Shown one piece after another: positions 21,822-26,552 of a DNA stretch of 64,000 bases (its first letter is position 1; the number at the start of each line of letters is the position of its first letter). Origin of the DNA: Nakamurella sp. PAMC28650 (GTDB taxonomy: Bacteria; Actinomycetota; Actinomycetes; Mycobacteriales; Nakamurellaceae). The translations under genes and the position numbers were made by a program. Under the pieces are notes generated by a model. It searched no databases and had not been told where the DNA came from. It saw only the letters and a program-made list of their open reading frames with translations. The stretch is from the NCBI RefSeq assembly GCF_014303395.1, contig NZ_CP060298.1, positions 3,925,001-3,989,000 of the forward strand, read 5' to 3'.

Positions 21822-22082
21822 CTACTGGTCGTAGATGTCGAGTCTGTGTCCAAGCCTGAGGACGACAACCAGCAGGACATCGTCGTGGACGCTGTAGAGG
21901 ATGCAGTAGTCGCCGACCCGAACTCGAAGACCTGGTCGGCCCTGCATTGCACGCGCATTGGGCGGGCGCGGATCTTCGGCAAGCAAAGCGATCGCGCCTT
22001 GGATGCGTCGACTCACCGCCGGGTCGAGCTTGCTCAAGGCACGGGCGGCCGCTGGACGGAGCTCGATGCGATAGCCGCTCAC
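21822..22082 (-). CDS. RelE/ParE-type toxin
   Basis: An 86-residue toxin with the full RelE fold: YRIELRPAAARALSKLDPAVSRRIQGAIALLAEDPRPPNARAMQGRPGLRVRVGDYCILYSVHDDVLLVVVLRLGHRLDIYD. The basic catalytic-type residues and the C-terminal RLGHRLDIY are present. RelE proteins cleave mRNA on the ribosome. The GTG start overlaps a TGA, as in a normal antitoxin-toxin pair, but only the last 15 codons of the antitoxin remain upstream. The toxin is therefore orphaned. Confidence 0.85.
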   Translation of the reverse strand: MSGYRIELRPAAARALSKLDPAVSRRIQGAIALLAEDPRPPNARAMQGRPGLRVRVGDYCILYSVHDDVLLVVVLRLGHRLDIYDQ

Positions 22083-22126: not shown

Positions 22127-22172
22127 AGTGCAGCGCCATCGGCGGCACCGTGTGATTCTGCGGTGCTGCTGT

Positions 22173-22186
22173 GGGCAGATCTGCCC
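22173..22186. promoter_or_regulatory. 14-base palindrome in the clpP promoter
   Basis: GGGCAGATCTGCCC is a perfect palindrome ending 51 bases upstream of the first clpP start. It overlaps a second inverted repeat, CTGCC-ctc-GGCAG (22181-22193). The place is right for an operator of the PopR-like regulator encoded after the two clpP genes, but this is inference. Confidence 0.45.
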
Positions 22187-22236
22187 TCGGCAGCGCCCAC
22201 TTGCCCACGTCGTCCCCCTGGGTCAGCATCGAGCAC

Positions 22237-22857
22237 ATGAGTACAGAGAACCCCGATCCCGCCCACACTCTGGACGACCAGCTGCACCGCCAGATGTTCG
22301 ACCGACGCACGCTGCTGTTGGGTGAGCCGTTGGAGGACCGCAACAGCAACCGGTTGTGCAACGCGATCCTGCTCCTCGCCGCCGACGACCCCCGCGCGGA
22401 CATCCGGCTGCTCATCAACTCCCCCGGCGGATCGGTGCCCGGGATGCTGGCCATCCGCGACTGCATGCGCTCGGTGGGAAACGACGTCAGCACCGTCAAC
22501 CTGGGCATGGCCTACAGCGCCGGACAGTTCCTGCTCAGCTCGGGCACCAAGGGCAAGCGCTATATGATGCCGCACGCCCGGGTACTGCTGCACCAGGGTT
22601 CCTCCGGGATCGGAGGCACCGCCATGGACATCGCGATCCAGGCCGACAACCTACGCATCACCCGGGACACGGTGCTACAGCTGATCGCGCAGGACACCGG
22701 ACAACCGTTCGACACCGTCGAGGCCGACTCCCGCCGGGACCGGTGGTTCAGCGCCACCGAGGCGAAGGCCTACGGCTTCGTCGACGAGATCGTAGCCTCC
22801 ATCGAGGATGTCATGCCCGCTGCGCACCGGAGCATCGGACTGGGGGCGCGGGGATGA
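22237..22857 (+). CDS. ATP-dependent Clp protease proteolytic subunit (ClpP3-like), catalytic
   Basis: A 206-residue ClpP starting at the ATG at 22237 (MSTENPDPAHTLDDQLHRQMFDRRTLLLGEPLED). The triad is present: Ser94 in NLGMAYSAGQFLLSSG, His119 in PHARVLLHQGSSGIGG, and Asp168 in DSRRDRWFSATEA. The GTAMDIAIQADNLRITRD handle is of the type seen in Streptomyces ClpP3. It should form a heptameric ring and degrade unfolded proteins with a Clp ATPase, which is not encoded here. It overlaps the second clpP as ATGA, so the two subunits are made in a fixed ratio. This is an accessory copy: the housekeeping clpP1-clpP2-clpX locus is not in this window. Confidence 0.9.
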   Translation: MSTENPDPAHTLDDQLHRQMFDRRTLLLGEPLEDRNSNRLCNAILLLAADDPRADIRLLINSPGGSVPGMLAIRDCMRSVGNDVSTVNLGMAYSAGQFLLSSGTKGKRYMMPHARVLLHQGSSGIGGTAMDIAIQADNLRITRDTVLQLIAQDTGQPFDTVEADSRRDRWFSATEAKAYGFVDEIVASIEDVMPAAHRSIGLGARG

Positions 22858-23444
22858 GCTACCCGATCCCCTACGTCACCACCCGGACCCCGCAGGGCGA
22901 GCGCACCGTCGACATCTACAGCCGGCTGCTGGCCGACCGGATCGTCTACCTCGGCACCGGCATCGACGACGGCGTGGCGAACGCGCTGATCGCACAACTG
23001 CTGCACCTGGAGAACGACAACCCCGACCTGCCGATCCAGCTGTACATCAACTCCGTCGGCGGTCAGGTGCCGGCAACGCTGGCCATCTACGACGCCATGC
23101 AGTTCATCCGGCCACGGGTGGAGACCACCTGTGTCGGTCAAGCCGTGGCCACCGCGGCGGTCCTGCTGGCCGCAGGCGCCGCCGGGCACCGCACGATCCT
23201 GGCCCACGGACGGGTGGTCATCCACGCACCGGCCGCCGAAGGGCGCGGGGCCATCCCGGACCTCATCCTCGAAGCCGAGGAGGTGGAGCGGGTGCGCACC
23301 GTGCAAGAGACGATCCTGGCCGCGCACACCGGGCGCAGCCCCGCCCAAATTCGCGCCGACACCGAGCGCGACCTGATCCTGACCCCCGAGGCCGCGGTCG
23401 ACTTCGGCGTCGTCGACTCCGTGGTCCGCTCCCGCAGCGTGTGA
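22854..23444 (+). CDS. ClpP-like subunit lacking the catalytic serine (ClpP4 position)
   Basis: A 196-residue protein with the full ClpP fold (VDIYSRLLADRIVYLGTGIDD; LYINSVGGQVPATLAIYDAMQFI), but the nucleophile is gone. Where active subunits have GQAASMGA, this one reads CVGQAVATAAVLLAAG, with Ala99 at the serine place. His124 (VVIHAP) and Asp173 (TERDLIL) remain. It should assemble but not cleave by itself, like the ClpR subunits of plants and cyanobacteria. It starts within the stop of the active clpP (ATGA) and ends one base from the end of the convergent regulator gene. Loss of activity is inferred from alignment by eye. Confidence 0.87.
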   Translation: MSYPIPYVTTRTPQGERTVDIYSRLLADRIVYLGTGIDDGVANALIAQLLHLENDNPDLPIQLYINSVGGQVPATLAIYDAMQFIRPRVETTCVGQAVATAAVLLAAGAAGHRTILAHGRVVIHAPAAEGRGAIPDLILEAEEVERVRTVQETILAAHTGRSPAQIRADTERDLILTPEAAVDFGVVDSVVRSRSV

Positions 23445-23445
23445 C

Positions 23446-23775
23446 TCAGGCGGCCAGGCAGACCGGGCCCGAGTGCCCAGAGCCGGCACTCGGTGCCGAC
23501 AGGCGATCAGCCACCCGCCGAGTCAGATCCACCACAGACAGCTCCAAGGCACCGGCGAGGGCGGCGATGATCTCGGAGGACGCCTCCTTCTTGCCGCGCT
23601 CCAGCTCCGACAGGTACTGCGTGGACACCCCGGCGTTGCTCGCGACGTCGGCCAGCCGCTCGCCGCGTCGGTGCCGCTCGGCCCGCAGCTGCGCTCCGAG
23701 ACCGGTGCGCCACAACGGCTCCGGCCCGAGCGGTGCGGAAGGGACGGGTCCTCGCAGCGGTATTACTGTGCCCAT
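23446..23775 (-). CDS. XRE-family regulator, PopR-like, ending in Leu-Ala-Ala
   Basis: A 109-residue protein with a helix-turn-helix at about residues 27-80 (LGAQLRAERHRRGERLADVASNAGVSTQYLSELERGKKEASSEIIAALAGALELSVVDLTRRV). The C-terminus is VCLAA. In Streptomyces, PopR controls clpP3-clpP4 and is removed by housekeeping ClpP through two C-terminal alanines. Here a helix-turn-helix protein with an Ala-Ala end lies next to a clpP pair, so I read it as PopR-like. It is convergent with clpP, one base apart, rather than upstream. Direct control of the clpP promoter is inferred. Confidence 0.8.
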   Translation of the reverse strand: MGTVIPLRGPVPSAPLGPEPLWRTGLGAQLRAERHRRGERLADVASNAGVSTQYLSELERGKKEASSEIIAALAGALELSVVDLTRRVADRLSAPSAGSGHSGPVCLAA

Positions 23776-25745: not shown

Positions 25746-25940
25746 AACCGCAAAACCCAACCGGAGCGGCGATTGTGGATCGCTGACCGGGTTGAATAAT
25801 CTGCGGTCGACTGCCAGCGCGCCGGGCCCTCCTACCCACCGCGCAACGACAGATATTCACCGTCGCACCGGATGACGATCGTCTACCGAGAAGTAGACCA
25901 CGGGGCCGGCGGTGTCATCTGGGTATGCCAGGCTGCTCCT

Positions 25941-26552
25941 GTGATCGACGACTTCGCCAAAGCCCACCTGCACGAGCATCTGCGCTGGGTACGCGAGGCG
26001 CTGGTGTGGAAACTGGAAGGCCTGCCCGAATACGACATCCGCCGTCCCCTGACGATGACCGGGACGAACCTTCTCGGCCTGATCAAGCACAACGCCATCT
26101 CCGACTCCCGATACTTCGGCGAAGTGTTCGACCGTCCGTTCGCCGAACCCCTCCCCCGATGGGATGACAAGAGCACGGCAGGCTCCGATCACTGGGCCAG
26201 ACAGGACGAGACGCGCGCCGACATCCTCGGCCTGTACCGACGGGTGTGGGATCACGTCGATGCCACGATCAACGCACTGGAGATCGACAGTCCTGGATTC
26301 GTGCCCTGGTGGAACGAGGACGTCCGGTTGTTCAGCGTCATGGTCCACCGGCTATCGGACACCACTCGGCACGCCGGACACGCCGACATCCTGCGTGAAC
26401 AGCTGGACGGCTCCGTCGGAGTCGACCCCTCGAACCGGCCGCTCCATGGCCGTGACTCGCAGTTCTGGACCGCCCGCACCGTTGAGCTGGAACGGATTGC
26501 CGCAGCGACGGCGCAGCCACACACCTTGCCCAACGCCGGTCAGCGAACCTGA
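25941..26552 (+). CDS. DinB/DUF664 family protein
   Basis: A 203-residue protein. I place the start at the GTG at 25941 (VIDDFAKAHLHEHLRWVREALVWKLEGLPEYDIRRPLTMTGTNLLGLIKHNA), which matches where DUF664 proteins begin; a longer frame to 25872 is possible. Metal-type histidines are in LIKHNA and in MVHRLSDTTRHAGHADILREQLDG. These are four-helix-bundle proteins related to mycothiol- or bacillithiol-dependent enzymes; the reaction of this member is unknown. It has no clear operon partners. Confidence 0.85.
   Translation: MIDDFAKAHLHEHLRWVREALVWKLEGLPEYDIRRPLTMTGTNLLGLIKHNAISDSRYFGEVFDRPFAEPLPRWDDKSTAGSDHWARQDETRADILGLYRRVWDHVDATINALEIDSPGFVPWWNEDVRLFSVMVHRLSDTTRHAGHADILREQLDGSVGVDPSNRPLHGRDSQFWTARTVELERIAAATAQPHTLPNAGQRT

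Follow-up and report, generated by a model that had tools for sequence, protein, structure and literature searches.

Recurrent loss of catalytic triad residues in ClpP4, the second subunit of an accessory Clp protease pair of actinobacteria

The ClpP4 proteins of actinobacteria appear, on balance, to be pseudoproteases that have evolved recurrently: the P2-type ring would have become a dedicated docking and gating ring in several lineages, through differing losses of catalytic triad residues, and serine would have been regained in a few nested ones. Such proteins, Streptomyces ClpP4 included, would form an independent bacterial counterpart of ClpR that has spread partly by horizontal transfer and on plasmids. 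The division of labour between the two rings seems to be old and to have become permanent. The pair analysed in most detail lies in the window, the whole stretch of 64,000 nucleotides that was studied (positions 3925001-3989000 of an actinobacterial genome of 5.63 Mb in one contig).

Organization of the clpP3-clpP4 locus

The two clpP genes of the window overlap by four bases, with ATGA common to both, and are followed by a convergent regulator gene (Table 1). The triad residues of both proteins were checked by alignment. The first-pass annotation had described an overlapping pair with a complete triad in the first subunit, an alanine in place of the catalytic serine of the second subunit with His and Asp retained, and a neighbouring regulator with an Ala-Ala end; the ORF coordinates, codon 99 and the alignment bore out each of these points. 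Both proteins matched PF00574 over nearly the whole profile, the second subunit with 202 bits.

Table 1. Features of the clpP3-clpP4 locus and other genes of the window (window positions)
Feature	Position	Strand	Properties
ParE-family toxin gene	21822-22082	-	PF05016, 39 bits; divergent from clpP3
Probable PopR operator	22165-22194		two dyads in tandem, GCTGCT-GTG-GGCAGA and TCTGCC-CTC-GGCAGC; 42 bases upstream of the clpP3 start
clpP3-like gene	22237-22857	+	206 aa; Ser94/His119/Asp168 intact; without axial N-loop motif; docking positions Arg57/Leu59/Ser79
clpP4-like gene	22854-23444	+	196 aa; Ala99/His124/Asp173; canonical axial N-loop; docking patch Gln62/Tyr64/Phe84
Codon 99 of clpP4-like gene	23148-23150	+	GCC, Ala at the catalytic serine position, within CVGQAVATAAV
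popR/clgR-like HTH regulator gene	23446-23775	-	109 aa; protein C-terminus LAA; convergent with the clpP pair
Mycothiol-S-transferase family protein gene	25872-26552	+	PF04978, 125 bits

The window ClpP3 is 46.8 % identical to ClpP1 of the same genome, 31.2 % identical to its ClpP2 and 29.3 % identical to the window ClpP4. Both the tree and the identities placed ClpP3 on the ClpP1 side and ClpP4 on the ClpP2 side. A canonical clpP1-clpP2 pair with intact triads is present in the same genome (genome positions 4472065-4473340), and a Clp-ATPase D2-small domain was found at three places, one of them near this canonical pair.

The ParE-family toxin gene and clpP3 have a common 154-base upstream region, which contains the PopR-like operator. 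No antitoxin-like gene for this toxin was recognised among the listed local ORFs of at least 40 aa. A gene for a Mycothiol-S-transferase family protein was also present in the window.

Alanine at position 99 within the genus

The first-pass annotation had proposed a survey of the genus for the loss of serine. The genus set consisted of 17 genomes, 12 of which gave a second subunit closer than the canonical ClpP2; in the alignment, six of these 12 had Ala and six had Ser. The loss therefore recurs in relatives, but the second subunits of the genus are not uniformly dead (the term used here for those that lack a triad residue and are predicted to be inactive). One Ser-bearing subunit, that of G015 (a genome 88 % complete), was on a contig of 3.5 kb, and the concatenated tree grouped it with the ClpP2-like outgroup. 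The Ala-bearing second subunits of the five other genus genomes were 58-75 % identical to that of the window, which indicates that the change is old.

A sequencing error at codon 99 was excluded by the presence of Ala in five other genus genomes and in many sequences elsewhere. A strain-specific mutation was also excluded, since 48 of the 72 second subunits with a changed triad in the class sample described below have lost the Ser itself. The Ala subunits of the genus did not form one clade and were interspersed on the tree with those of other families, a pattern suggestive of horizontal exchange of the cassette. The canonical clpP1-clpP2 pair was present in all six genus genomes with a dead ClpP4. 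In two genus genomes (G013, C40:50919-57290; G014, C178:12633-18950) no more than about 6 kb separates an Ala-type pair from the canonical pair on the opposite strand, an arrangement from which the window genome differs.

Distribution of triad changes across the class

A set of 606 ClpP ORFs was extracted by order, class, genome-contig and plasmid searches, in which one gene may recur; these collections are biased, as both queries were dead proteins. The tree of these ORFs contained 303 first-type and 303 second-type sequences. All but one of the first-type ORFs (302 of 303) had an intact Ser-His-Asp triad (SHD), the remaining one being truncated, and SHD was also found in 19 of 19 ORFs of the clade with the canonical ClpP2s of the genus (repeats of one locus included). 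Among the other second subunits the triad was changed in 204 of 284, or 195 of 269 after removal of identical sequences and 186 if Asp-only changes are set aside.

A class sample of 394 genomes, drawn evenly, was searched with thresholds of E<=1e-59 for query P0002 or E<=1e-70 for query P0004. Matches were obtained in 122 of the 394 genomes, and 72 of these 122 lacked at least one triad residue (65 of 122 without Asp-only changes). The second-subunit match had an intact SHD in the other 50, a proportion to be read with the reservations that the sample, which depends on two dead queries, may under-count distant live pairs and that some of the 50 may be housekeeping ClpP2s. The most frequent changed states were AHD (22), SGD (15), GHD (7), EHN (6), EHH (5) and SHN (4), with WHT (3), SHS (2), GHE (2) and single cases of SHH, SDD, SGE, WHD, FHN and AQD making up the remainder. 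At the serine position the replacements included Ala, Gly, Phe, Trp and Glu; His gave way to Gly, and Asp to Asn, His or Ser. By genus, 22 were all changed, 22 all intact and two mixed. One clade (L169, L170, L171, L173 and L216) combines Ser to Glu with Asp to Asn or His (EHN/EHH).

The Streptomyces-type ClpP4

The plasmid-borne ClpP4 of S. fungicidicus (L140, 2995-3597) has kept Ser, but its catalytic His is Gly: the motif reads LLGQP, in place of the IHQP or LHQP of most relatives. This combination was found in 17 of 17 Streptomyces-type ClpP4s (16 SGD and one SGE; L140 and L144-L159), a type that comprises the S. fungicidicus sequence and 16 sequences of one genus, taken as Streptomyces by clustering. 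Judged from its triad, the Streptomyces-type ClpP4 also appears to be dead. The first-pass annotation had stated that Streptomyces ClpP4 has the serine and had set the window apart as an exception. The serine is indeed present, but the triad is incomplete, the catalytic His being Gly in all 17 sequences, and the contrast was not upheld: loss is recurrent and extends to the Streptomyces type. The viability of S. lividans is reported to need either clpP1P2 or clpP3P4 (PMC9765437); if its ClpP4 is like these 17, the species can live on a pair whose ClpP4 is dead.

Cassettes of clpP3, clpP4 and regulator were also observed on plasmid records of Prescottella equi (L142), Tsukamurella (L143), Embleya (L141) and Streptomyces. 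This suggests horizontal spread.

Repeated origins of the lesions

A quick tree was reconstructed from 85 representative concatenated pairs with the triad columns of the second subunit removed. At least seven dead/live changes and 23 triad-state changes were required on this tree, in which 25 of 82 inner branches are weak. A single ancient loss was rejected when all dead subunits were constrained to one clade (AU test, p-AU 6.7e-42), as was a single origin of the Ser-to-Ala/Gly/Phe group (one-clade constraint, p-AU 1.5e-27), the groups in both tests having been defined only once a first tree had been inspected. Three main lesions were distinguished: loss of Ser in a large clade to which the window pair belongs, loss of His in the Streptomyces type, and a change of Asp, followed in part by Ser to Glu, in a third clade.

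Ser-bearing sequences from Arsenicicoccus, Agilicoccus, Kocuria, G018, G062 and G246 were nested in the Ala clade, for which either reversion or repeated loss is likely. At this site Ala is encoded by GCN, and Ser by TCN in every SHD second subunit except one; the two codon types are one base apart. Six nested Ser second subunits (L206, L037, L039, L061, L066 and L074) are possible reversions; the codon of L037 is AGC and those of the others are TCN.

Selection and retained features

The dead subunits are under purifying selection. Pairwise dN/dS (Nei-Gojobori, dS 0.1-1.5) had medians of 0.298 in the Ala group (largest 0.888), 0.103 in the Gly group, 0.192 in the Streptomyces type and 0.171 in the Asp-changed clade, with medians of 0.332, 0.163, 0.215 and 0.211 for the partner ClpP3s in the same order. 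The SHD second subunits (median 0.383) and the P2-like ones (0.461) are more distant sets, so that these medians depend on set make-up and are not rankable against the others.

An axial N-loop motif was detected in 182 of 188 ClpP4-clade and 15 of 32 P2-like sequences and in none of 17 canonical ClpP1 or 205 first-side sequences. With a looser motif the counts were 166 of 186 for dead and 84 of 89 for live second subunits, and zero of 286 for the first type. Because live pairs share this distribution, and canonical ClpP1 is also without the motif, the split between the two subunits needs no lesion. The split is probably the older event and the loss the later one, the lesion being permitted rather than required.

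The docking face was compared at the three positions established for docking in E. coli, M. tuberculosis and Streptomyces. Among 154 changed ClpP4s with a partner, two of these positions were aromatic in 122 and one in 32; the first subunits paired with them had no aromatic in 22 cases, one in 131 and two in one. In the window pair the N-loop and the docking aromatics are on the second subunit only, a contrast that is weaker across relatives. Among dead subunits Tyr64 had a weighted frequency of 1.00, and position 84 was Tyr (0.38), Phe (0.36) or His (0.23). An AlphaFold model of the window ClpP4 (pLDDT 88.6) had N-terminal strands at residues 7-12 and 15-20 and lower confidence over residues 121-140, including the handle. 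Its best structural matches were M. tuberculosis ClpP1P2 chains (TM 0.93), with 4u0g_A, named ClpP2, at rank 16.

Erosion of the dead subunits extends beyond the active site. Thirteen columns were listed as losing most conservation in dead relative to live subunits. Four of these (99, 98, 122 and 127) coincide with the serine site or lie at most three residues from Ser or His, three (68, 71 and 73) belong to the NSPGG loop or adjoin it, and the remainder (10, 12, 39, 107, 140 and 175) are elsewhere, with 10 and 12 in the N-loop.

Two other interpretations of the second gene bear on these data. The loss of a triad residue and the erosion of several neighbouring columns are features of a decaying pseudogene, but the ORF is full length, the dN/dS medians are well below 1, mean column identity is 73 % in 38 sequences, and the N-loop and docking residues are mostly retained; decay can be given almost no credence. 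A ClpP4 that is still a peptidase, through a displaced nucleophile or a rescued triad, would account for the retention of His and Asp in most Ala/Gly variants (29 of 33 AHD or GHD in the class sample, with GHE, AQD and similar states counted as changed), and Listeria ClpP1, with Asn for Asp, is reported to be active in a heterocomplex (PMC9765437). Residual activity of this kind is nevertheless highly improbable, given that the Streptomyces type has lost His and other changed sequences Asp, and that the columns near the active site are eroded.

Regulator and operator

A convergent ClgR/PopR-like regulator was found within 1.2 kb of 230 of the 269 distinct second subunits, and 221 of these 230 regulators end in AA; for 34 of the 269 there was no such regulator despite more than 450 bases being available. 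The window regulator scored 56 bits with the ClgR model, below the cut-off of 170 bits, and is therefore regarded as a ClgR paralogue. Of 269 distinct clpP4 genes, 267 adjoin a first-type clpP and two have none within the distance applied; an NTGA stop/start overlap was present in 227 of 267 distinct pairs.

The PopR site described for S. lividans is TCTGCC-N3-GGCGAA/TCTGCC-N3-GGCAGA (PMC9775585). The dyads upstream of the window clpP3 have the same layout with imperfect outer ends, and a one-mismatch search was not significant in the window alone. Four groups of pairs were tabulated; in the AHD, SGD and SHD groups, but not in the GHD group, no other 6+6 dyad was as frequent in the upstream regions as TCTGCC-N3-GGCAGA. 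The shorter TCTGCC-N3-GGCA occurred in 64 of 267 upstream regions, compared with 0.3 in shuffles and none in coding controls.

The resemblance to clpP3-clpP4-popR of Streptomyces that had been noted at first pass found support: both loci have a ClpP1-like followed by a ClpP2-like subunit and a convergent, AA-tailed PopR-like regulator that is a ClgR paralogue, and the window has a probable PopR-type site. They differ in the lesion, as the Streptomyces-type ClpP4 has lost His and kept Ser while the window ClpP4 has lost Ser. In S. lividans, clpP3P4 is reported to be a backup induced on failure of ClpP1P2 (PMC9765437, PMC12607617). The enrichment of the PopR-type site and the AA tails of the regulators support the prediction that the pair is a backup of this kind, induced when ClpP1P2 fails.

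Proposed division of labour between the two rings

As read from the sequence, the clpP3-clpP4 locus would encode a conditional second Clp protease core. It is quite likely that, within such a core, ATPase docking and gating fall to a ClpP4 ring and all of the cutting to a ClpP3 ring. The first-pass annotation had proposed a hetero-oligomeric, half-active or gated protease; the sequences suggest a narrower task for the dead ring, namely docking and gating. ClpP3, of the P1 lineage, and ClpP4, of the P2 lineage, would be made together and would most likely assemble as an asymmetric double ring. The ClpP4 ring, with its axial N-loops and hydrophobic docking clefts, would bind ClpX or ClpC and gate entry without cutting, and the ClpP3 ring, without an N-loop and, in the window lineage, without an aromatic docking residue, would supply every active site. 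A PopR-like activator would switch the operon on through the tandem TCTGCC-N3-GGCAGA-type site, the trigger being that housekeeping ClpP1P2 ceases to degrade the activator through its Ala-Ala tail.

The actinobacterial ClpP1P2 proteases of M. tuberculosis, M. smegmatis and Streptomyces resemble the window pair in being asymmetric, the second subunit bearing both the N-loop and the docking patch, but the Ser-His-Asp triad is complete in the housekeeping ClpP2s (19 of 19 ORFs) and incomplete in the window ClpP4. In Streptomyces ClpP1P2, a Ser-to-Ala mutant of ClpP2 is reported to be fully active, only the serine of ClpP1 matters, and ClpP2 alone docks ATPases (PMC9765437); M. tuberculosis ClpP2 is described as docking ClpX and ClpC1 and bearing a long N-loop (PMC4416901). 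Given this division of roles, and the positions of ClpP3 and ClpP4 on the P1 and P2 sides, the simplest reading is that the dead ring docks and the live ring cuts. The repeated loss of triad residues from ClpP4 may be due to P2-type catalysis being dispensable in Streptomyces ClpP1P2 and probably in the ancestral pair too.

An alternative composition is the mixing of ClpP3 and ClpP4 within the same ring, like the plastid R-ring and cyanobacterial ClpP3/ClpR, giving a tuned protease with fewer than seven active sites per ring. Tight translational coupling, seen in the NTGA overlaps of 227 of 267 pairs, fits one-to-one mixing. Mixed rings are reported in plastids (PMC7966870). Mixing is nevertheless unlikely here: ClpP3 and ClpP4 are only 29.3 % identical and fall on the ClpP1 and ClpP2 sides, and M. 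tuberculosis ClpP1 and ClpP2 are described as stacking as one ring each (PMC6889138).

A further possibility is that ClpP4 regulates the housekeeping core by entering ClpP1 or ClpP2 rings to inhibit or retarget them, somewhat like S. hawaiiensis ClpP-ADEP, which is reported to disrupt ClpP1 tetradecamers and to replace ClpP1 in a core with ClpP2 (PMC12607617). The canonical pair does co-occur with the dead ClpP4 in each of the six genus genomes that carry one. A regulatory role is very improbable, however, as a first-type clpP adjoins clpP4 in 267 of 269 cases and the docking face, needless for a poison subunit, is kept. ClpP-ADEP is likewise an accessory actinobacterial ClpP, but unlike the window ClpP4 it is most similar to ClpP1 and, together with ClpP2, makes up an active core (PMC12607617).

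Discussion

Dead ClpP homologues are known in the form of ClpR (PMC7966870), and a survey from 2008 classed 21 of the 121 S14 proteins in its 91 genomes as putative inactive homologues (PMC2605481). A statement that ClpP4 of Streptomyces or of other actinobacteria lacks a triad residue was not found in the literature searched, in which older and subscription papers are thinly covered; the additional file of PMC2605481 may list such cases.

The ClpP/ClpR systems of cyanobacteria, plastids and apicoplasts are similar to the window pair in that an inactive ClpP homologue is partnered with an active one, and the apicoplast ClpR is reported to form its own heptamer (PMC7966870). They differ in that the window copy has lost one triad residue only and belongs to an extra, apparently conditional core and not to the main one. 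The window ClpP4 scored 149 bits, below the cut-off of 263 bits, with NF009204, which we take to be a ClpR-like model, and it grouped with actinobacterial ClpP2 in trees that held no ClpR sequences. The comparison with ClpP/ClpR made in the first-pass annotation stands as an analogy, the subunit being fixed, selected and apparently dead; on a tree of actinobacterial ClpPs only, ClpP4 groups with the ClpP2 lineage, from which it probably descends. The best reading is that the window ClpP4 would work like ClpR by analogy and would complete the split known for ClpP1P2.

The clpP3-clpP4 pairs amount to a natural experiment, repeated many times, on the question why the two rings of a protease retain different subunits. 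Catalysis seems to have been stripped in evolution from the very ring that, according to biochemical work on the Streptomyces housekeeping core, can do without it. The Streptomyces backup Clp protease is reported to be insensitive to ADEP antibiotics (PMC12607617). If the interpretation given here is true, this backup protease has one catalytic ring only, which bears on the drugging of actinobacterial ClpP.
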